DNA from: an uncultured Chlorobiaceae bacterium
Lineage (GTDB): Bacteria > Bacteroidota > Chlorobiia > Chlorobiales > Chlorobiaceae
NCBI GenBank assembly: GCA_903920215.1
Contig: CAIXLG010000022.1
Span: 1-39,466, forward strand
Length of the DNA: 39,466 nt
Direction: 5' to 3'
Under the pieces are notes generated by a model. It saw only the letters and a list, made by a program, of their open reading frames with translations. It was not told the origin of the DNA and made no database searches. A program made the translations under genes and the position numbers. Positions 2,105 through 15,279 of the stretch are shown in pieces. The number at the start of each line of letters is the position of its first letter. The stretch's first letter is position 1.

Positions 2105-3724
2105 TCAGTGTGCAGATGAAAGATCGACCTTTTCCCCTTTTGGTATCCTGATCAGTAGGAGCAGAGGCAAAGCAAGTGCAAAAAGGAGCGCAATAAGCAT
2201 GAATGCATCCATGTAAGCCAGATGGTGGCTTTGAACAGTAACGGTGCCTTCAAGCGCCTTTATGCCTGCAAGCTCAGCCTCATGCGGTGACAGGCCCGCT
2301 TTCATGGTGGCAAGCTGCTGTAAGCTCTCAAGCCTTGCGACCGCGGCGGTGTCATAGGGCGAAAGGTGGCTGAGAAGCTCCACCCTGTGTGCCGCTACCC
2401 GCCTTGCGATATAGGTATTGGTAATCGCAATGCCGAACGAACCGCCAAGCTGGCGTACCATGTTATTGAGCCCTGTAGCCTGTCCGATGTCTTTGCCATG
2501 CAGCCCTGCAACAGCGAGCATGGTAACGGGAATGAAAATAAACCCAAGCCCGAAACCGCGTAACAGAAGTATCCAGAAAAAGTTATCCGATCCTGACTGC
2601 ATGGTTTGCTGACCGAGTTCCCAGCAGAAAACGGTAAAGGACACCATACCGACAGCCATCACCTTTTTAGGGGAGATACCCCGTTGCAGCGCTATGCCGA
2701 GCGGAAGCGAGATTATTCCAGTGACAATTGTGCTTGGAAAAAGCACCAGCCCTGTCAAGAGGGCGGTAAAACCGAGCAGCCGTTGTACAAACACAGGAAA
2801 GATAAAGAGAGAGCCATAGAGGCCATAACCAACAATAAAGGTAAGTACTGCTCCAATTGCCAGGTTTTTGCTTCGGGCCAGCACTCTCAAGTCAACTGCA
2901 GGTTCATCTGTGTGCAGCTCCCACCAGACAAAACCCAGAAGTGAAATAGCGGCTATGAGGGTAAACCAGGTGATATAGGGTGTTTCAAACCAGTCTTTTG
3001 CCTCTCCCCGTTCAAGAATGAACTGCAGCGAGCCAATGCCGACAGCAAGCAGCCCTATGCCCGCCCAGTCAATTTTAGAAACCGTGTGCTGGACTTTTGG
3101 CTCTCTGAGAAAGGTGAAAGCAGACCATGCGGCAAGCAGCCCGACCGGGATGTTGACGAAAAAGCACCACTCCCAGGCAAAATAGTCAACAAGAAAGCCC
3201 CCGAGCAGCGGGCCTATAGTGGGGCCGAGCACAAGTCCCATGGAAAAGATACCGGTGGCCTTGCCACGCTCTTCGGGCCGGTATGTTTCATAAAGGATAG
3301 CTTGTGATGTCGGCAGGAGCGCACCACCACCGAGACCTTGAAGAAAGCGGAAAACCACAAGTGCCCAGATATTCGGGGCCATGCCGCAAAGCAGGGAGGC
3401 AAAGGTAAAAAGCAGAATCGAACCAATGTAGTAGTTTCGCCGTCCAAGCAGGTTGCCGAGAAAGCCTGAAAGGGGAATTACAATAACGTTGGCAATGGCA
3501 TAACTGGTGATGACCCATGCTGCATCATCGATACTCGCACCAAGGTTCCCGCTGATCTGGGTGAGCGCTACATTCACAATGGTGGTGTCGATCAGTTCAA
3601 GCATGGCTGAAACGATCACCGTCAAGGTGATGATTATTTTTCTGAACCCGGTGTCATAGGTTTGGGCTGGATTCGGCAGCATTGCCGCTACCGCAACCCC
3701 ATTCTGTTGTTCAACTCTTGCCAT
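2105..3724 (-). CDS. emrB: EmrB-type multidrug efflux permease (MFS, DHA2 family)
   Basis: A 539-residue inner-membrane transporter expected to have 14 membrane segments and to export hydrophobic compounds by proton antiport. The DHA2 signature in the first helix is LELIDTTIVNVAL (about residues 42-54). The antiporter motif C region GLVLGPTIGPLLGG is present at about 165-178, and a motif-A-like SGFLGNLLGRRNYY follows helix 2. The C-terminus ends in a short basic cytoplasmic tail. It is the last gene of tolC-usp-emrA-emrB, so it should work with EmrA and TolC as a tripartite pump. It is separated from emrA by 113 bp that contain a hairpin-forming repeat, which could reduce its expression relative to emrA. 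Substrate is not predictable. Confidence 0.92.
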   Translation of the reverse strand: MARVEQQNGVAVAAMLPNPAQTYDTGFRKIIITLTVIVSAMLELIDTTIVNVALTQISGNLGASIDDAAWVITSYAIANVIVIPLSGFLGNLLGRRNYYIGSILLFTFASLLCGMAPNIWALVVFRFLQGLGGGALLPTSQAILYETYRPEERGKATGIFSMGLVLGPTIGPLLGGFLVDYFAWEWCFFVNIPVGLLAAWSAFTFLREPKVQHTVSKIDWAGIGLLAVGIGSLQFILERGEAKDWFETPYITWFTLIAAISLLGFVWWELHTDEPAVDLRVLARSKNLAIGAVLTFIVGYGLYGSLFIFPVFVQRLLGFTALLTGLVLFPSTIVTGIISLPLGIALQRGISPKKVMAVGMVSFTVFCWELGQQTMQSGSDNFFWILLLRGFGLGFIFIPVTMLAVAGLHGKDIGQATGLNNMVRQLGGSFGIAITNTYIARRVAAHRVELLSHLSPYDTAAVARLESLQQLATMKAGLSPHEAELAGIKALEGTVTVQSHHLAYMDAFMLIALLFALALPLLLLIRIPKGEKVDLSSAH

Positions 3725-3837: not shown

Positions 3838-4836
3838 TCATTTAATCTTAACGTCCACAACCACGTTCATGCCGGCAGCAAGCTGATGATCCTTGTCAGG
3901 CTGTTCGGTAAAGACGATTTTGACTGGAACACGTTGCGTCACCTTTATAAAGTTGCCGCTTGCATTGTCGGGTGGAAGCAGGGTGAACTTTGCACCGGTA
4001 CCCGCTGAGAGAGACTCCACCTTCCCTTTGAACTCTTTATCAGGGAATGCATCAACCTTGATGGTCACTGGCAGTCCGGGATGTATTTTGTCAAGCTGGG
4101 TCTCCTTGAAATTCGCAACAACCCATAGCTCGCTGCTGCCGACCAGAGCAATGAGTTGCTGCCCTGGGGTAACGTATTGGCCGGGTTCTATATTCTTTTT
4201 TGAGATATGTCCTGCAGCCGGTGCTATAATGTTGGTGTAGGATAACTGCAGTTCAGCGTTGTGGAGTTCCGCTTCCTTCAGTCTGACCTGTGCGGCAGCA
4301 GCTTTCTGCTGTCCTACTGTTGCAGAATGTTGTGATGAGGATGCGTCGGCACCGGCACGGATGGCATCAAATTCAGCCTGTGAGATCACATCTTGCTGCC
4401 GAAGGGTGCTGTTTCGCCGGAGATCGGCGCCGAGTTTCCGTTCGGTAGCTGATGCTGCTCCTGCGTTTGCTTCTGCCGCAAGAACGGATGCACGGGCATT
4501 CTGCAGGGCAGCTTCTGCCATTTCTCGTTTGATCCGGTAATCCGGAATATCAAGGATGATGAGAGTGTCACCCTTCTTTACTTGTTGATTGGTTTCTACA
4601 CGTACTTCATGTACAGTTCCGGGAATTCGTGAAATGATCGGATAGACATCTCCTTCAATCTGGGCGTTGTCCGTTTCAACGTACTGAAAAGAGTGGTAGA
4701 GGGTCATGCCGCCCCAGATCAGTCCGACAGTAATAACAACACCTGCAATAATGATGCGCAGCGGATTCGATGCCTTTACAGGGTCTTTGCCGGAGGTCGG
4801 GTTTCCAGGGATTGTCTTTGAATCAGTTTGTTCCAT
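3838..4836 (-). CDS. emrA: EmrA-type membrane fusion protein (HlyD family)
   Basis: The 332-residue product links an inner-membrane EmrB pump to an outer-membrane TolC channel. I place the start at the ATG at 4836 (MEQTDSK) because it lies one base after the upstream usp stop codon (4838-4840); a longer in-frame start at 4893 would run into usp. One membrane segment lies at about residues 27-49 (LRIIIAGVVITVGLIWGGM). It is followed by a biotinyl-lipoyl-like half (QIEGDVYPIISRIPGTVHEV), an alpha-hairpin of about residues 105-190, and the second lipoyl half and beta-barrel (LSYTNIIAPAAGHISKKNI onwards). Second-last gene of the efflux operon. Confidence 0.92.
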   Translation of the reverse strand: MEQTDSKTIPGNPTSGKDPVKASNPLRIIIAGVVITVGLIWGGMTLYHSFQYVETDNAQIEGDVYPIISRIPGTVHEVRVETNQQVKKGDTLIILDIPDYRIKREMAEAALQNARASVLAAEANAGAASATERKLGADLRRNSTLRQQDVISQAEFDAIRAGADASSSQHSATVGQQKAAAAQVRLKEAELHNAELQLSYTNIIAPAAGHISKKNIEPGQYVTPGQQLIALVGSSELWVVANFKETQLDKIHPGLPVTIKVDAFPDKEFKGKVESLSAGTGAKFTLLPPDNASGNFIKVTQRVPVKIVFTEQPDKDHQLAAGMNVVVDVKIK

Positions 4837-4837
4837 G

Positions 4838-5305
4838 TTATTGCTTGTTGTTGTCGTGAAGAGTATCATTTTGAAGATTGTCCTGAACTGCATTCCCGTT
4901 GTTGTTCGGCATTTTAAGAATCACAACCGGGCATGGAGCCTGCCGCATAACTGTTTCTGCAGTGCTTCCAACAAGAAGCCGTCCTATGGCAGTGGTGCCG
5001 TGCGAACCCAGGAGAATCATATCTGCGTTATGTTCTTTTGCATAAACGAGAATCTCTGCAGCAGGGTCGCCATATGCAACACTGAATACGGTGTCAGCTT
5101 TACGTTGAGAAAGCATGTCGCTGTATCGCGAAAATTCATGCAAGTGTTTTCTCAGCAGGTGATCATGATTGTTTTCTGCCGGCGCCACATAGAGAAGAGT
5201 GAGTTCTACATCACAAGAGTATATCGCGGCTGCATAACGCACTATAGAATCCGCAGCAGTGGAAAAATCTACGGCGCAGATTATTTTTTTAAGCGAAGTC
5301 GTCAT
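4838..5305 (-). CDS. Universal stress protein, UspA family
   Basis: A 155-residue single-domain UspA protein, cytoplasmic. It starts with the typical first strand KKIICAVDFS and carries the ATP-binding signature of the ATP-binding subclass, G-x2-G-x9-G-S, in GSHGTTAIGRLLVGSTAE, followed by CPVVIL. The start at 5305 (MTTSLKK) is one base after the tolC stop codon (5307-5309); a start at 5332 would lie inside tolC. A tail of about 20 Asn/Asp-rich residues follows the domain. It is sandwiched between efflux genes with one-base gaps on each side, so it must be co-transcribed. Its role there is unknown; sensing nucleotide or stress state of the cell is a guess. Confidence 0.9.
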   Translation of the reverse strand: MTTSLKKIICAVDFSTAADSIVRYAAAIYSCDVELTLLYVAPAENNHDHLLRKHLHEFSRYSDMLSQRKADTVFSVAYGDPAAEILVYAKEHNADMILLGSHGTTAIGRLLVGSTAETVMRQAPCPVVILKMPNNNGNAVQDNLQNDTLHDNNKQ

Positions 5306-5306
5306 G

Positions 5307-6620
5307 TTACCAGAAAATCTCCCCGGTTGCACGTTTCAGCGTATAGTTTCTTATTACATAGGTATAGCCAGCCTGGAGTCTCGCAAGTTCTGCCTCGGAA
5401 AGTGACGCTTCAGTGTTAAGCAGGTCGAGTACTGTCGCCATGCCGTTTTCATACCGCGCTCTCACATGTTCGGCTGCAAGCTTGGCTTGTTGCACCTGTA
5501 CTTCAGTCGTAGTTATTTTTTCCGATGCGGTTTCGAGGGCATGGGTTGTCTCTTCGACATCTGATTTGACCTGCTGCTGGGTATCAAACTTTCGGTTCGC
5601 AGCGGCATGCATGAGAGCTGTCGCCTCCTGACGTTCAGCACTGGTTTTGAATCCGCTGAAAAGAGGTACCTCAAGATGCAGGCTGCCCACAAAATTTTCA
5701 CGGATTTCATTAATATCAGGCATGAGGCCATTGGTGACACCGTAGGATGCGCTGCCGGATATTACAGGAAGTCCGTCTTTCATCGCGATGGAGCGTTGCT
5801 GTTCAGCGGCATGTTCATGTTCGTTGGCAAGTTGCATCTCAAGGCGCTGTTCCAAGGCGTGCTTTACAAGTTCGGTGTTTTCATGACCAGTCGGAGTGAC
5901 AGCAAACGATCCCTGAATATTGAGCGGCACGTTGTCCGCGATACCTGTCAGGCGTCGCAGGGTCAGTTCCTGGCGGAGCCGCTCATGCCGCAAATCAAGC
6001 ATTTTGCTCTTTGCAGCTGCGATTCGTACTTCGGTGGAAAGAACATCAAATCTGGTCGCAGCACCTGTTTTGTAGCGTTTTGTTGTGAAGTCGAGAGCCT
6101 TGCTGAGTGCTGTGATCTCTTTCTCTTCCACCTTTATATTTTCCCTTATAAACAGAATCCCGTAAAAGAGTTGAACAGCCTGAAACGAGAGCTCTCTTCG
6201 GGATAGTTCAAGAGTATGTTCAGCTGTTTTTTTCCCTGTCTTCGCCAGATCGACCGTAGAGCCTCTTTTACCGAAGTCAAACAGGGTTGCCTTGGCGGTG
6301 ACTTTAGCTTCATAGTTGTTATTTGGGGCAAACTTGAGCATGGGACTTCCAAAAAAGCTCATTTCAGAAACAGGGTCAAGATAGGTGTACCCCGCGCTGG
6401 CTGAGATCTGTGGAAAATATGCGCTTCTGCTCTGGGTAATTCGGGCATCGGCCGCACCTATATCATCGGCCGCAGCCTTCAATGCCGGATTGTTTTCACG
6501 GACCATGCGTATCGTTTTTTCAATCGTAAGCGGTTCTTCAGCACCCATTGCCAGTAAAGGCCAGGAAAGCATCAGTGCAGTTGCTGCGACTCTAACAGTT
6601 CCTGTCAAAATTCTATTCAT
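5307..6620 (-). CDS. tolC: TolC-type outer-membrane efflux protein
   Basis: The 437-residue protein forms the outer-membrane and periplasmic channel for the EmrAB pump. I place the start at the ATG at 6620 (MNRILTG), because what follows is a signal peptide ending at about residue 25 (LLAMGAEE) and then the usual first helix of the family (LTIEKTIRMVRENNPALKAA). The open frame extends further upstream to 6893, but that part would read through the sigma-54-type promoter. Long alpha-helical stretches with internal duplication, typical of TolC, occupy about residues 45-430; SRSAYFPQISASAGYTY is the conserved strand region. It is the first gene of the operon. Confidence 0.9.
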   Translation of the reverse strand: MNRILTGTVRVAATALMLSWPLLAMGAEEPLTIEKTIRMVRENNPALKAAADDIGAADARITQSRSAYFPQISASAGYTYLDPVSEMSFFGSPMLKFAPNNNYEAKVTAKATLFDFGKRGSTVDLAKTGKKTAEHTLELSRRELSFQAVQLFYGILFIRENIKVEEKEITALSKALDFTTKRYKTGAATRFDVLSTEVRIAAAKSKMLDLRHERLRQELTLRRLTGIADNVPLNIQGSFAVTPTGHENTELVKHALEQRLEMQLANEHEHAAEQQRSIAMKDGLPVISGSASYGVTNGLMPDINEIRENFVGSLHLEVPLFSGFKTSAERQEATALMHAAANRKFDTQQQVKSDVEETTHALETASEKITTTEVQVQQAKLAAEHVRARYENGMATVLDLLNTEASLSEAELARLQAGYTYVIRNYTLKRATGEIFW

Positions 6621-6698
6621 AAGAGCTCGATGATTTGTTCTGTTATTGTTCTTATACATCCAGAAGCGTAGGCTTGAACATGTCATGTACACTATAAA

Positions 6699-6716
6699 TT
6701 GCAATTTACATGCCAG
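6699..6716 (-). promoter_or_regulatory. Sigma-54 (RpoN) -24/-12 type promoter for tolC-usp-emrAB
   Basis: Read on the minus strand the site is CTGGCATGTAAATTGCAA. It matches TGGCAc-N5-TTGCa with one change (T for C), and the invariant GG and GC are exactly 10 bases apart (GG = 6713-6714, GC = 6701-6702 on the complementary strand). Transcription would start near 6689, about 70 bases before the tolC ATG. The divergent neighbour is a sigma-54 activator. Confidence 0.8.
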
Positions 6717-6790
6717 ACAACGAAAACGGTGCAATAACAGCTGCAGCCCCTGTTCTATAAGGGGGTTAATTCTTGTTACTCGTGCATGGA

Positions 6791-6807
6791 TTCTGAAAAA
6801 GTCAGAA
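6791..6807. promoter_or_regulatory. Inverted repeat, candidate activator-binding site
   Basis: TTCTGA-AAAAG-TCAGAA has perfect 6-bp arms. It lies about 75-95 bp upstream of the -24 element, i.e. roughly 100-120 bp before the predicted start, the usual place for an enhancer site of a sigma-54 activator. It also overlaps the -35 region of a possible plus-strand promoter (TATACT at 6815-6820) for the activator gene, so binding could repress the activator's own transcription. Confidence 0.55.
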
Positions 6808-6863
6808 AATTCTGTATACTGTGTTCCTGATATTTCGGAATACCTTGAAACAACTATTGCGTT

Positions 6864-9094: not shown

Positions 9095-10288
9095 TCATTC
9101 GCAAACAGCGCGTATAGCCTGAGCAACAATCGGGATCCCCTCAGCGATCTGCTCGGGGGAGTTGTTGCAGTACGAGAGTCGCAGCGAATTGTTTTTTTTG
9201 CCGGCAGGATCGAACGTTTTTCCTGCAACAAACACCGCCCCGCCTTCGATGGCCAGCGTCATTATCCTTGTTGCATCGGCATCATCCGGCAGGGTGAGCC
9301 AGATGTAAAATCCTCCTCGAGGTTCATTCCACTGCACATAGTCCGGCAGGTGTTCCCTGAGGGCAGTGACCATGGCAGCCGCTCTTTTTTTATACTCCTG
9401 CCGTACACCGGCAACATAGCTGTATATCTGGCCTGAACGAATAAATGAATCGGCCAGCACCTGGGTGAAACTCGGCGAACAGGCATCAGCTGACTGTTTG
9501 ATGAGTTCACATTTAGCATAAATTTTTTCCGGTACCAGCATCCATCCAAGCCTCAGGCCGGGGCCAAGAATTTTGGAAAAAGATCCGGTATAGCACACAT
9601 TGATACCGTCCGGATTAATAGCCTTGATCGGTTTGAGGCGCTCCTGATCCTCCTCGAAAAAATAGAGATCCCCGTACGCATCATCCTCAATGAGCGGAAT
9701 GTTGGTTCCCTGAAGTATTGTAATAAGCTGCTCTTTGCGTTCGGCAGTGTAGAGTATACCTGCCGGGTTGTGGAAATACGGGGTGACATAGAGAAACTTC
9801 GCCTTCTCATTCCTGTTAATTTCCTGACGCAGCCCTTCTATTGAAATGCCGTCGCCGTCAACGGCAATCCCTCTCAGTTCAGCATCATAAGAGCGGAAAG
9901 CTGAGAGCGCTCCGATAAAGCAGGGGGTTTCGACCAGAACTGGTTCACCGGGGTCAATAAAGGCTTTGCCCAGAATATTCAGTGCCTGCTGGGAACCCGT
10001 CGTAATGAGCAGTCGGTTTTCCTTTATCGGCAATCCCTTTTTTTCGAGAAACCCTTCAAGTGATTCAAGGAGCGAAGGCAGGCCGGGTGTCGGCCCATAC
10101 TGAAAGGCAGCCTGTTTTTTTTTGATATCAAGCGCCCCGTAAAGCTTTTCGACTGCCTCAACAGGAAAGAGGTCATTTCCGGGCATCCCGCCGGCGAAAG
10201 ATATAATGTCTGGTCTTGAGGCCAGGGTCATGAGATCCCTGATTTCGGAAGAGCGAAGTGACGATACTGCTTTTGAAAACCTGGGCAT
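9095..10288 (-). CDS. PLP-dependent aminotransferase (class I, AAT fold; 2-aminoadipate/aromatic type)
   Basis: The 397-residue enzyme swaps an amino group between an amino acid and a 2-oxo acid in the cytoplasm. PLP-contact features are visible: TGSQQALNILGK (97-108), HNPAG (173-177), D203 with Y205 in EDDAYGDLY, the Schiff-base lysine K239 in GSFSKILGPGLRLGW, and the C-terminal Arg in LRLSY. The sequence belongs to the LysN/MocR-like branch but has no DNA-binding domain. As last gene of iorAB-paaK-(insert)-ACT-aminotransferase, 14 bp after the ACT gene, it probably acts on aromatic amino acids and their keto acids, the substrates of IorAB. The substrate is inferred from the context only. 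Confidence 0.88.
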   Translation of the reverse strand: MPRFSKAVSSLRSSEIRDLMTLASRPDIISFAGGMPGNDLFPVEAVEKLYGALDIKKKQAAFQYGPTPGLPSLLESLEGFLEKKGLPIKENRLLITTGSQQALNILGKAFIDPGEPVLVETPCFIGALSAFRSYDAELRGIAVDGDGISIEGLRQEINRNEKAKFLYVTPYFHNPAGILYTAERKEQLITILQGTNIPLIEDDAYGDLYFFEEDQERLKPIKAINPDGINVCYTGSFSKILGPGLRLGWMLVPEKIYAKCELIKQSADACSPSFTQVLADSFIRSGQIYSYVAGVRQEYKKRAAAMVTALREHLPDYVQWNEPRGGFYIWLTLPDDADATRIMTLAIEGGAVFVAGKTFDPAGKKNNSLRLSYCNNSPEQIAEGIPIVAQAIRAVCE

Positions 10289-10302
10289 GAACGTGTATGT
10301 GG

Positions 10303-10731
10303 TTAAACCTGGATGACATCGCCTTCCTTGAGAAGCTCCATTTTGTGCTCCTGAAGGACGTCGATAATTTTATGGAGAGAGTCCGCCCTGATGACAACTG
10401 TCGCCTTGCACTCTCCTGAAGCAAAGGCATACATGTACTCAATGGCGACACTGTTGTCCGAAATGATCTGGAGCGCCTTGTGCAGCCCCCCCGGCGTGTT
10501 AGGAATAATCATCCCAACAACATCAGTAATTTTAACAGTAAACCCGCTGTCTTTAAGCACCTGTGCAGCAAGTTCAGGTCTCCCGACAATCATGCGCAGA
10601 ATACCGTAATCAGCCGTATCGGCAATGCTGAACGCCGAGATATTAATGTCGTTGTCAGCAAGAATTCCGGTCAGTTCAGTCAGCCGACCTGTCTTGTTTT
10701 CGAGAAACACCGATAATTGCTTGATAATCAT
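10303..10731 (-). CDS. Protein of two ACT domains
   Basis: The 142-residue protein consists of two ACT ligand-binding repeats, about residues 1-66 (IKQLSVFLENKTGRLTEL) and 70-140 (VVGMIIPNTPGGLHKALQII). It has no catalytic or DNA-binding part, so it probably binds an amino acid. Such stand-alone double-ACT proteins commonly neighbour phenylacetate-CoA ligase and indolepyruvate oxidoreductase genes. Here paaK is upstream but separated by about 1 kb holding two hypothetical genes, and the aminotransferase is 14 bp downstream. It may sense an aromatic amino acid; this is inference. Confidence 0.88.
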   Translation of the reverse strand: MIIKQLSVFLENKTGRLTELTGILADNDINISAFSIADTADYGILRMIVGRPELAAQVLKDSGFTVKITDVVGMIIPNTPGGLHKALQIISDNSVAIEYMYAFASGECKATVVIRADSLHKIIDVLQEHKMELLKEGDVIQV

Positions 10732-10821
10732 GGCATAACCTCATTTTAATAATGATCAACCAGCTCTAAGTTACAATAAAGTCAAAAGTCCTGATAAAAA
10801 GCTATTCCGTTCCCTCTCTCA

Positions 10822-10848
10822 GTCATTTCGAAACGCAGTGAGAAATCT
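10822..10848 (+). repeat. Dispersed short repeat, copy 2
   Basis: Identical over 27 bp to 8984-9010, same orientation. It lies between the start of the ACT gene and the end of the 84-residue hypothetical gene, at the edge of the segment that interrupts the operon. Confidence 0.85.
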
Positions 10849-10861
10849 TTTTTCTCAGCAT

Positions 10862-11116
10862 TCATAACTCATTCCTCGTCCCACTCTGAATATCGATCAA
10901 CTGATTCCATTGCTTTTTTAATTGCCGATTACAAAACTTCCTGAGTTCTCTCATCTGAACCAACTCACCGCCTTTATCAGCATTACGTGCTACTTTTGCC
11001 TTTCCTGCGTCGGTTCGCGGGCCGGTTGATTTCGCCCACGGCTTCCACTTTTGTATCATCTCCGATTGCCGTGCCCTTCGCTCTGCCGACCATGCATTTG
11101 CCCTTGGCTTTGTCAT
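10862..11116 (-). CDS. Small conserved-looking basic protein, function unknown
   Basis: The 84-residue product has the block ANAWSAERRARQSEMIQKW (6-24) followed by KPWAKSTGPRTDAGKAKVARNA (25-46). I recognise this Trp/Pro/STGPRT pattern from small uncharacterised proteins in proteobacteria that follow a gene like the next one. It overlaps that gene by 134 bp (10983-11116) in another frame, so residues 1-44 are encoded over the partner's last 44 codons. No function can be assigned. The composition is Arg/Lys-rich. Confidence 0.65.
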   Translation of the reverse strand: MTKPRANAWSAERRARQSEMIQKWKPWAKSTGPRTDAGKAKVARNADKGGELVQMRELRKFCNRQLKKQWNQLIDIQSGTRNEL

Positions 11117-11714
11117 GCTTCAATAGTTTGTTTTGCTCAATTTTTATTTTTTTCGGTGTGTTACTGTCGGCATCACTCCCCCTGTGAAGCGTGTTGTTAA
11201 CCTGCTGTGGACCATTGCTGATATTGGCCTGATTGGTTATAACGGTCTGCCGGGGGTTCTTGATATTTGCGAGGGTCTCAATCGTTGCGCGACTCTGGCT
11301 CTGAGCCTTCAAGGCAATGCGCATATACGCCTCAGTCTTTTCAGAATCCTTGCTATCACTTGATTTTCTTGCCATATCGGCGAAAATAGCGTTCAACGCT
11401 ACAGCTTGTCCAATAAGTATTCCTTCAATTCCTTTTGTCTCGCCGCTATGAAACTCATCTATTTGCCTGTGAATCTCGCCAACCATATCGCAAGGCGGGA
11501 TATCCCCGATAGGATTAAACTTTTTCAGTACTGAAGCTGCATTTCCCGGACCGCTCAAGACATACTCTGCAGCCCTTGCACCTCTTGATCGTTCATCTCC
11601 CGGTGCTTTTATAATGATGTGTAAGTGTTTGGGTAGACTTTCCAGGTTAATCTCCTCCTTGTCAACACTCTCCTGATAATCCCTATCCAAAGCAGTCATC
11701 TCTTCCTTTGTCAT
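10983..11714 (-). CDS. Hypothetical protein, overlapping partner of the 84-residue gene
   Basis: The 243-residue protein has an N-terminal acidic/helical part, a helix with TEAYMRIALKAQSQSRATIE (128-147) and then KNPRQTVITNQANISNGPQQ (152-171), a pattern I recall from uncharacterised proteobacterial proteins with TVVxNQANxxxGPQQVNN. After about residue 175 it is Lys/Arg-rich and low in structure; residues 200-243 are encoded over the start of the 84-residue gene. The pair sits between paaK and the ACT gene, which elsewhere are neighbours, so it looks inserted. No catalytic motif is visible. Confidence 0.65.
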   Translation of the reverse strand: MTKEEMTALDRDYQESVDKEEINLESLPKHLHIIIKAPGDERSRGARAAEYVLSGPGNAASVLKKFNPIGDIPPCDMVGEIHRQIDEFHSGETKGIEGILIGQAVALNAIFADMARKSSDSKDSEKTEAYMRIALKAQSQSRATIETLANIKNPRQTVITNQANISNGPQQVNNTLHRGSDADSNTPKKIKIEQNKLLKHDKAKGKCMVGRAKGTAIGDDTKVEAVGEINRPANRRRKGKSST

Positions 11715-11779
11715 GATTACGTTTTTAATGGCGAGGTTTAAAAAGTCAAACAGATAAAGCGATTCCTGAGCCTCCTTTG

Positions 11780-13081
11780 TTATTGTAAGTTACGTTTGTC
11801 GATTACCCGCTTCGCCTTGCCCATGCTGCGCTCTATGGTGCCGGGTTCAACCAGCCTGATACTCGCGCTGATCCCGAGGGTGCTGGATATATTGGCCTTG
11901 ATCCGATGGCGCAGTCCTTCGAGCTCTTTCACCTCATCTGAAAAGAACTCCTCTTCAATTTCCACCTGGATTTCCATGGTGTCGAGGTTGTTTTCACGAT
12001 CGACCACAATCAGGTAGTGAGGTTTTGTTTCACTCATTTCGAGCAGAACCGATTCCACTTGGGAAGGGAAGACATTGACACCCCTGATAATGAGCATGTC
12101 GTCCGAACGGCCCACGCATTTTTCCATGCGCACAAGCGTTCGGCCGCACTCGCATTGTTCCGCATGGAGGCGGGTAAGGTCGCGTGTCCTGTAGCGGATA
12201 AGCGGCATAGCCTCTTTTGTAGCCGGAGTGAATACCAGTTCGCCAAGTTCACCGTAGGGGAGCACCTCCCCAGTATCGGGGTTGATGATTTCAGGGATAA
12301 AATGGTCTTCAAAAATATGCATCCCACGCTGAAACTGGCACTCCATCGAGACGCCGGGGCCGATAATTTCAGTGAGGCCGTAAATATCATAAGCCTTGAT
12401 GCCGAGCACCTGCTCAATTTGCGCGCGCATCTCCTGTGTCCATGGTTCGGCGCCGAAAACTCCTGCTTTGAGTTTTATCTTTCTCGGGTCAATTTTTTCC
12501 TCAACGAGGGATTCCCCAATAAAGGCAGCATAGGATGGCGTGCACGCAAGTACAGTAGAACCGAAATCTTCAATGAGCTGCAGCTGTTTTTTTGTGTTGC
12601 CGCCTGAAATTGGTACAACAGAAGCCCCTACTTTTTCCGCTCCATAGTGCAGGCCAAGTCCACCGGTAAAGAGGCCGTAACCATATGCAACCTGGATAAT
12701 ATCAGTTTTTGTCACTCCCGCCATGGTGAGCGAACGGGCAACAACTTCGCTCCACATTTGAATATCGTTATGCGTGTACCCGACCACTGTTGGTTTGCCT
12801 GTGGTGCCGCTAGAGGCATGAAATCGAACGATTTCCGGCTGAGGTACGGCAAAAAGGCCGAAGGGGTAGTTATCGCGGAGGTCTTGTTTTGTCGTGAAGG
12901 GCAGTTTTTTCAGCTCTTCAATTCCTTTGATGTCACCGGGTTCGATACCTGCTTCCTTCAGTTTATTGCGGTAAAAGGGAACCGTGTCGTAGACACGTTT
13001 CACCATCTCCTTTACCCGCTGGCCTTGAAGTTTTTGGAGTTCTTCCCTCTCCATACACTCGTAATGCTCGTTCCAGATCAT
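11780..13081 (-). CDS. paaK: Phenylacetate-coenzyme A ligase
   Basis: The 433-residue enzyme activates phenylacetate (or a related arylacetate) to the CoA thioester with ATP. The adenylate-forming P-loop is [16 protein letters not shown] (88-103, SSGTTGKP). Further motifs are [36 protein letters not shown] (motif A5-like), and RTRDLT with the CECGRTLVR Cys pair, then the hinge region [11 protein letters not shown], all usual in PaaK. The start ATG overlaps the iorB stop (ATGA, 13078-13081), so the two genes are translationally coupled. With IorAB it may interconvert arylacetate, aryl-acetyl-CoA and aryl-pyruvate. Confidence 0.93.
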
Positions 13082-13668
13082 AGCTCTGTCGCTTGAGTTT
13101 GAGATAATTCCTGTCCTTTTCTGAATGCCCTGATGTTAATGTCAACAATATCCGGGCCTTTTGCATGAAAAAGCTCTCCGATGGCCGATTCAAGCTGTTC
13201 AGTGGCAATCCTGATATAAGGAGCTGCCGCACCGAGCATTACCATGTTTGATGTTCTTGCATTGCCCGCCTCCCTCGCAAGTTCTGCCGCATTCACCAGC
13301 ACAGGGCTGTTTGTTCGGCGCAATTCAGCAAGGATATCTTCAATTGCCGGATAGTTCTCAACGTTGATAAATGGGTCTATAGAGGTAATGATTCTGCTTT
13401 GGGGGGCAAGGAATGGCAGATAACGAAGCGCTTCATGAGGTTCAACAGAGAGAATCATATGCGCTGTTCCTTCAGCGATCAGATCAGAATAAATCGTTCT
13501 GTTTGAAATTCGCAGGTGCGACTGAACAGCACCTCCACGCTGGCTCATTCCATGAACTTCTGTCTGACGGATAGTGAGGTTGCTTTGCAGGGCAGCCCGG
13601 CCTATTACAGCCGCAATAGTAAGTATTCCCTGTCCACCTACTCCCGCTAGAATAATGTTGATATGCAT
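13078..13668 (-). CDS. iorB: Indolepyruvate:ferredoxin oxidoreductase, beta subunit
   Basis: The 196-residue subunit carries the pyruvate-ferredoxin-oxidoreductase gamma-type domain: N-terminal [16 protein letters not shown] (4-19), then [19 protein letters not shown] (37-55). Together with IorA it catalyses the reversible, ferredoxin-linked conversion of an aryl-pyruvate plus CoA to aryl-acetyl-CoA and CO2. It lies 9 bp after iorA and overlaps paaK by four bases. Length and motifs are normal for the family. Confidence 0.94.
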
Positions 13669-13677
13669 AGTGTGTTG

Positions 13678-15279
13678 TTACGTGCTGGCCACCTTGGTTC
13701 GTTTTTTCCGTGCAGCTGTTTCAATGCATTCACGCTGCGCAATAACTACCGATACCCCGTCATAGGAAATTTCTTCCTTGAGTACCGTCATGTTTTCTTC
13801 AAGATGCGATTTCAGCGGGACGATGGTTTTAAGGTGCTCCTCCTCAACGCCGAGTCCCCTGCAGATATCCAGAAGCTTTGAGCCTGTTGCAGACGATTGC
13901 TGGCCGCCGGTCATAGCTGTGGTATCATTATCAGCGATAATAACAGTGAGCGGCGACCGGTCGTTAATGGCATCAAGCAGACCGGTCATGCCGGAGTGCG
14001 TAAACGTCGAATCACCAATAACCGCCACTGCCGGTCGCAGTCCTGCATCTGCCGCACCTTTGGCCATAGTTATCGATGCGCCCATATCGACGCAGGTATG
14101 AATTGCATTGAATGGTTCCAGAGCGCCAAGTGTGTAGCAGCCGATGTCTGAAAAAACATGGTGCTCTCGAAATGAACTCATGACCGCGGTAAGTGCGTCG
14201 TACAGGTCACGATGGCCACACCCTTTGCAGAGAGCTGGTGGTCTTTGAACAACAATATCAGGAACCGGCATTACAGGCATTGGTTCAATGCCAAGTCCAC
14301 TGGCGATAATATCAGCATTGAGTTCTCCTGCTCGAGGCAGCGTTCCGTCCATGCGTCCCTTGATGTTCTCTCCGCCAAAATAACCTCTCAGCAGCTCTTC
14401 GTAAACAGGGTATCCCTCTTCGGCGACAAGAATGGTATCGCAGGATGTAAAGAAGCTTTCAACCTGTTTTCTCGGAAGCGGATACTGTCCGATTTGAAGA
14501 ACAGGAAAGTCAAGCTTAAAGGTTTGACGCACCTCCATTGTATAGTTGAAGGCAATGCCGAATGCTATAACCCCTCTGGAGCCGGTTCCTGTGATAAGGC
14601 GGTTAAGCCATGACTGTTCTGAACGTTTTTCAAGCTCCTTCTGCATTCCCAGGAGCACATTGTACTGTCGTCGGGCATTCTGCGGAATGAGTACAAAGCG
14701 TTCAGGGGCATAGATGGCATGAAGGGGGTTCTGCATGCGAGCGAGAGTGCGCTCCACTCCTGCACGCGAATGAGCAAGCCTGGTGGTAAGCCGAAGAAGT
14801 ACAGGAAGCTTGACTGATTCAGAGAGATCAAAAGCCTCACGGGTTGCGGTATACAGATCCTGCTGAGAAGAGGGTTCGAGTACAGGCAGCATGGCAAATT
14901 TTCCATAGACGCGGCTGTCCTGCTCGTTTTGCGACGAATGCATTGAGGGGTCATCAGCAACCGCTACAACAAGCCCTCCGTTGACGCCTGTAATGGCCGA
15001 GTTTATGAATGCATCAGCGGCTACATTCAGTCCGACATGTTTCATGCACACCAGACTTCGTTTTCCGGCATAAGACATGCCGAGAGCCGCCTCATAGGCA
15101 GTTTTTTCATTTGTGGACCATGATGATCGTACCGGTTGAGCTAATGCATCACTGTTTTTCTGAATGTATTCGGTGATTTCTGTCGAAGGGGTTCCGGGGT
15201 AGGCATAGACGCCTGATATTCCGGCGTCAAGGGCACCAAGAGCAATTGCTTCAGCTCCCAGCAAAAGGTGTTTGTTCAT
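13678..15279 (-). CDS. iorA: Indolepyruvate:ferredoxin oxidoreductase, alpha subunit, without C-terminal ferredoxin domain
   Basis: The 533-residue subunit binds thiamine diphosphate. Motifs: AYPGTPSTEITEYIQ (26-40), MKHVGLNVAADAF (79-91), the NEQDSRVYG block, a CKGCGHRDLYDAL motif at about 354-366 and the TPP/Mg signature GDSTFTHSG...ITDR-like with IADNDTTAMTGGQ. Archaeal IorA proteins of about 600-650 residues go on to a C-terminal domain with two 4Fe-4S motifs. Here the protein ends soon after VVIAQRECIETAARKKRTK, and no CxxCxxC motif occurs. Electrons must therefore leave by another route, perhaps directly to a separate ferredoxin. First gene of the ior-paaK operon; upstream gap 123 bp. 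Confidence 0.93.
   Translation of the reverse strand: MNKHLLLGAEAIALGALDAGISGVYAYPGTPSTEITEYIQKNSDALAQPVRSSWSTNEKTAYEAALGMSYAGKRSLVCMKHVGLNVAADAFINSAITGVNGGLVVAVADDPSMHSSQNEQDSRVYGKFAMLPVLEPSSQQDLYTATREAFDLSESVKLPVLLRLTTRLAHSRAGVERTLARMQNPLHAIYAPERFVLIPQNARRQYNVLLGMQKELEKRSEQSWLNRLITGTGSRGVIAFGIAFNYTMEVRQTFKLDFPVLQIGQYPLPRKQVESFFTSCDTILVAEEGYPVYEELLRGYFGGENIKGRMDGTLPRAGELNADIIASGLGIEPMPVMPVPDIVVQRPPALCKGCGHRDLYDALTAVMSSFREHHVFSDIGCYTLGALEPFNAIHTCVDMGASITMAKGAADAGLRPAVAVIGDSTFTHSGMTGLLDAINDRSPLTVIIADNDTTAMTGGQQSSATGSKLLDICRGLGVEEEHLKTIVPLKSHLEENMTVLKEEISYDGVSVVIAQRECIETAARKKRTKVAST

Follow-up and report, generated by a model that had tools for sequence, protein, structure and literature searches.

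We found that the tolC-usp-emrA-emrB operon of a Chlorobium genome is, in all likelihood, transcribed from a sigma-54 promoter and would be switched on by an activator that is encoded divergently from it. The locus lies in a stretch of 39,466 nucleotides, here called the window, for which a sequence-only reading had proposed a sigma-54-controlled efflux operon. Judged from comparative evidence, that proposal is very probably correct, and the evidence exceeds what the reading had claimed: the sequences show the promoter, two enhancer sites, rpoN, an activator whose sigma-54-contact machinery is intact, and conservation throughout the family (Table 1).

Table 1 Features of the efflux locus in the window
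Feature	Position	Strand	Remarks
emrB, DHA2-family MFS drug exporter	2105..3724	-	TIGR00711 411.5 bits, above the cut-off of 230.2
emrA-like HlyD-family periplasmic adaptor	3838..4893	-	start may be 4836
usp, universal stress protein	4838..5305	-	family models
tolC-like outer-membrane channel (OEP), first operon gene	5307..6620	-	start ATG 6620
Sigma-54 (-24/-12) promoter of tolC-usp-emrA-emrB, TGGCATGTAAATTGC	6701..6715	-	sequence, genome pattern search, relatives
Enhancer site B, perfect palindrome TTCTGA-N5-TCAGAA	6791..6807	.	centre 96 bp upstream of -12 G
Conserved linker between A and B	6808..6823	.	extra GAA half-site abutting site B (GAA-N2-TTC)
Enhancer site A, second palindrome, TTCCGAAATATCAGGAA on the minus strand	6824..6840	.	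33 bp from site B; centre 129 bp from -12 G
Sigma-54 activator (enhancer-binding protein), 699 aa	6864..8963	+	two GAF, AAA+ with GSFTGA loop, FhlA-like Fis-type HTH

Results

The operon and its divergent activator in the Chlorobiaceae

Family models assigned the four operon genes to an OEP channel, a universal stress protein, an HlyD adaptor and an EmrB exporter, in agreement with the earlier reading. The OEP domain of the tolC product is certain (Pfam, E = 1.1e-59), and the protein scored 184.4 bits with TIGR01844 (cut-off 225.15). The tolC start was placed at its ATG because distant relatives align only from about there. The nearest model of the adaptor is that of EmrA (TIGR00998, 220.6 bits, below the cut-off of 390.8); the protein is classed here as EmrA-like, and strict EmrA membership is not claimed.

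The host is a Chlorobium genome of 3.04 Mb with identified relatives. A profile search of this genome recovered a complete rpoN, a 489-aa frame with the Sigma54_AID, CBD and DBD domains. Neither of the sequence features that would argue against sigma-54 control, a genome lacking rpoN or promoter bases that vary among relatives, was found: rpoN is complete and the promoter bases are kept in two genera.

We searched 86 family genomes for the activator and compared the DNA around its orthologues, which gave 63 orthologous Chlorobiaceae loci with upstream DNA from two genera, 54 of them non-redundant. The activator is divergent from tolC in 63/63 loci and, where the contig allows, tolC is followed by (usp), emrA and emrB. 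Six activator-less genomes, some of them incomplete, also lack emrB (G002, G008, G067, G105, G108 and G109). In four others (G027, G075, G086 and G091) emrB lies on a contig that breaks off short of where the activator would be, and G027 retains the double enhancer near the contig edge. Among the 86 family genomes we saw no emrAB operon of this type that was contiguous and lacked the activator.

Two neighbouring regions were also observed. At 971-1807 the window holds a BRO-N domain gene between msrB and emrB; the msrB-emrB gap of the closest relative (L032) is only about 30 bp, so roughly 1.1 kb has been inserted in the window, and this insert is perhaps phage-derived. On the other side, 9095-15279 encodes an aspartate-type aminotransferase, an ACT-domain protein, a 243-aa gene, a PaaK-like ligase and IorBA, an aryl-pyruvate block that is often kept beside the activator and convergent with it. 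The 243-aa open frame (10983-11714, between the ACT and PaaK genes) had no Pfam or NCBIfam match.

A -24/-12 promoter precedes tolC in every locus

The near-consensus GG-N10-GC promoter that the earlier reading placed before the operon is present at 6715-6701 on the minus strand. Its layout is TGGCAT-GTAAA-TTGC, with GG at 6714-6713, N10, and GC at 6702-6701, and it agrees with the consensus at 11/12 positions (GG-N10-GC in the context TGGCAYR-N4-TTGCW). The position of these elements predicts a transcription start at about 6689, the same value as had been proposed. The pattern TGGCAYRN3WTTGC has a single match in the window. Across the whole 3.04-Mb genome it has 7 matches, versus 1 for the reversed pattern used as a control, and one of the 7 stands immediately before nifH, a classic sigma-54 gene. 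A second match precedes the gene for a PEP-CTERM-type protein (L103:1284-2159, on contig G000:C136), where a near-consensus sigma-54 site stands 114 bp before the gene; the same contig also carries another sigma-54 activator homologue.

We then searched the tolC strand at comparable positions for [CT]GGCA[CT]-N5-TTG and found it in 63/63 orthologous loci from the two genera, versus 0.27% of shuffled regions. Within the 54 non-redundant relatives GGCA and TTG are invariant, an invariance that is partly forced by the search pattern, so that the conservation counts partly rest on the pattern that found the sites; its occurrence in every locus is not forced. The -12 C is replaced by T or A in 13/54 loci. 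Flanking bases of the 54 non-redundant regions average only 0.21 bit, so the conservation is local and the promoter stands out from its surroundings.

A paired palindrome forms the candidate enhancer

The 6-bp-arm inverted repeat that had been noted at enhancer distance was confirmed as site B and is conserved among relatives, where it proved in fact to be double. Alignment revealed a second palindrome, site A, which the sequence-only reading had overlooked, and both lie within the usual enhancer distance of about 80-150 bp upstream of a promoter. Both palindromes occur in 56/63 loci: TTC-N11-GAA is found twice, exactly 33 bp apart, in these 56, versus 0/16,200 shuffles, and the remaining 7/63 lack the exact pair. 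Conservation extends into the linker, whose GAA half-site has an information content of 1.9-2.0 bits.

A pattern search of the 86 family genomes recovered the exact 50-bp composite A-B site in 66/86, nearly always as one copy and at the activator gene, while the reversed pattern gave 1 match in all 86. The few extra composite matches (G078:C286, G092:C77 and G105:C79) look like chance occurrences. A composite site that occurs about once per genome, beside the activator, points to a regulator dedicated to this locus. The activator probably serves only this locus, with the proviso that single-site targets would escape the search; a palindrome search of the genome with one mismatch allowed matched too freely for a regulon to be drawn from it.

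In most loci site B lies about 96 or 107 bp from the -12 element; the remaining ones have distances of 63/64, 73, 75, 85, 86 or 196 bp. The distance changes inferred from these values are 11, -10, -22, -22, -33, -20 and +89 bp, of which 6/7 are close to whole helical turns and +89 is not. A helical-phase test gave p ≈ 0.015 with a period of 10.5 bp per turn and p ≈ 0.001 with one of 10.8, a result that depends on the period chosen and on seven events inferred by eye from alignments. Changes by roughly whole turns are what DNA looping predicts, and the pattern is suggestive of an enhancer that must face the promoter.

The activator has a tandem-GAF, AAA+ and Fis-type architecture

Pfam detected the domains of the GAF-AAA+-Fis activator that the earlier reading had described (PF00158, E = 9.7e-72; HTH_8, E = 7.4e-07). 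An alignment of 31 homologues showed that GETGxGKE, GSFTGA and GGTxFLDE are conserved, Walker motifs included, and that the HTH is strongly conserved. In an AlphaFold model, two GAF folds follow one another (residues ~10-180 and 190-345) and are connected by long helices; the GAF domains are modelled with confidence, whereas the AAA+ part is poor and was not interpreted, and no ligand was inferred. PDB 3k2n, a sigma-54 regulator domain from Chlorobium tepidum with the same GAF fold, is 58% identical to activator residues 10-181. Only its structure entry was found, with neither a function nor a ligand; the domain is probably the first GAF domain of the Chlorobium tepidum orthologue. The best NCBIfam match of the activator is the FhlA model NF011958, with 409.5 bits, about half of the cut-off of 830, and the NorR model NF003451 gave 365.3 bits, below its cut-off of 476. 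By these model scores, the activator is FhlA-like in architecture, not FhlA.

The activator gene has a putative promoter of its own. A sigma-70-like CTGAAA-N16-TATACT at 6793-6820, of a kind that occurs at chance frequency, overlaps the palindrome at 6791-6807, and its putative -10 element (TATACT, 6815-6820) falls inside the A-B linker. The inverted repeat that had been described over the activator's -35 is this same repeat, site B. Autoregulation of the activator is plausible from the overlap of sites A and B with the predicted promoter.

Some paralogues and distant homologues adjoin other exporters

Paralogous activators are 57-63% identical and have as neighbours either usp with tolC, HlyD and ABC exporter genes, or usp alone. 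The former arrangement was identified by Pfam in L212 and is alike by gene layout in L214 and L211. The latter is found in L062, L063 and L213, where paralogues 57-58% identical (L062:7179-8057, L063:6705-7581 and L213:6956-7980) adjoin usp without emrAB or another recognised pump. The paralogous loci again carry -24/-12-like sites. L062 and L063 have TTTTTGA as their -12 element, and their palindrome arms are one base closer, TTCTGA-N4-TCAGAA.

In another family of the same order (L233:319-6755), a 45% homologue is divergent from tolC-HlyD-ABC genes, and the intervening DNA carries TGGCACGGCAGTTGAA, a sigma-54 site agreeing at 11/12 positions; the exporter type has changed here and the link to the regulator has stayed. 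In Nitrospira defluvii (L123:6479-12349), a 40% homologue is directly followed by genes for HlyD and an exporter with a double ABC domain. No strong sigma-54 sites (≥11/12) were found near the exporter genes of the distant homologues in Nitrospira and Acidobacteriota, so outside the order the link is seen in gene neighbourhood only.

Taken together, these neighbourhoods suggest a general tie between the activator lineage and exporters. A broader reading, which we put forward tentatively and think somewhat more likely wrong than right, is that the FhlA-like tandem-GAF clade comprises widespread, dedicated one-component efflux regulators in the Chlorobiaceae, the sister family and perhaps Nitrospira. 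On that reading, the link to tripartite exporters (EmrAB, or HlyD-ABC with TolC) would have been kept while the pump type changed, and the enhancer spacing would have been re-tuned in the paralogues.

Alternative explanations of the conserved sites

The same upstream DNA could be read as a housekeeping sigma-70 promoter that mainly drives the operon and overlaps the -24/-12 site, the sigma-54-like bases being coincidental. The window does contain a 9/12 sigma-70-like match, TTGTCT-N18-TATAGT, at 6720-6691, but the number of such matches in the region equals that of shuffles (8 versus 7.4), and a sigma-70-like element overlaps the -24/-12 site in only 4/54 relatives, whereas the -24/-12 bases occur in all. 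The housekeeping promoter is therefore not what is conserved, and we consider this explanation most improbable. Little more probable, in our estimate, is that the palindromes belong to another regulator, such as one that represses tolC or the activator gene, and that the activator acts elsewhere. This would fit the overlap of A and B with the activator's predicted promoter; yet the composite site and this activator are conserved together, about once per genome and side by side, and the diverged paralogues have related sites with altered arm spacing, as expected if the HTH and its site co-evolve.

The alternative that carries real weight concerns the purpose of the system and is compatible with the sigma-54 regulatory mechanism: sigma-54 control would be right, but it would mainly serve metabolite export or a general stress response with Usp as a key product, not drug resistance. 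We give this a substantial chance, a little short of even. Most operons include usp, which is also the common neighbour in two pumpless paralogous loci (L062 and L063), but it was not detected in the operons of about six relatives. The neighbouring aryl-pyruvate block (IorAB, PaaK, ACT, aminotransferase) makes aromatic acids of the arylacetate type conceivable among the candidate pump substrates, but the block and the activator are convergent, and they do not adjoin in every case.

Discussion

From the parts of the locus and their conservation, which were observed directly, we infer activator binding, looping, ligand control and autoregulation in the following form. Using the Fis-type HTH, two activator dimers would bind palindromes A and B, which are 33 bp or about three helical turns apart. 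Once one of the two GAF domains had taken up a small molecule, the AAA+ domain would be released and could assemble into a hexamer; the DNA from enhancer to promoter would loop, and the GSFTGA loops would remodel the closed sigma-54 complex. The EmrAB-TolC-type pump would then be made and expel a toxic compound or metabolite. Activator bound at A and B may also limit its own synthesis, because these sites overlap its predicted promoter.

Such a system resembles the FhlA/NorR/NifA type in N-terminal GAF sensing, AAA+ and Fis-type HTH, and in controlling a neighbouring or divergent operon locally through a palindrome upstream of it. It differs in that the activator falls below every curated equivalog cut-off and in having a tripartite exporter as its target instead of hydrogenase, NO-reductase or nif genes. 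The pump itself resembles EmrAB-TolC of E. coli in combining an EmrB-subfamily MFS exporter, an HlyD-type adaptor and a TolC-type channel. E. coli EmrAB-TolC is regulated by the MarR-type repressor EmrR/MprA; in the Chlorobium locus tolC lies within the operon, usp is included and a sigma-54 activator replaces the MarR repressor.

Sigma-54 activators beside their target operons and sigma-54 control of efflux are both already known. In Myxococcus xanthus, the direct targets of Nla28 include the efflux operons MXAN7147 (RND/ABC) and MXAN989 (CusAB-type) (PMC9765219). Nla28 is thus a sigma-54 activator with efflux targets, but it is a starvation regulator with many targets, neither dedicated nor adjacent. 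Sigma-54 promoters of E. coli acrD and emrD are listed as confirmed (PMC8743547); these too are drug-efflux genes read by RpoN holoenzyme, but no dedicated adjacent activator is described there. ABC-type transport systems have also been predicted to be under sigma-54 control (PMC12316311). The earlier statement that sigma-54 control of Emr pumps is unusual was too strong in view of acrD, emrD and Nla28. In the open-access literature we found no account of an EmrAB-TolC-type pump with a sigma-54 activator that is dedicated to it across a family, and none of the present locus in any green sulfur bacterium.

In the usual description, drug pumps are kept silent by repressors that come off the DNA. 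The green sulfur bacteria, an entire family of anaerobic phototrophs, appear to hold one such pump off by default, through a sigma-54 promoter and its own sensor-activator. With sites defined to the base, a GAF domain of a close homologue already crystallised and a target that is probably single, the system is compact and suited to finding the inducing compound and to learning how sigma-54 is driven from a pair of activator sites spaced by three turns.
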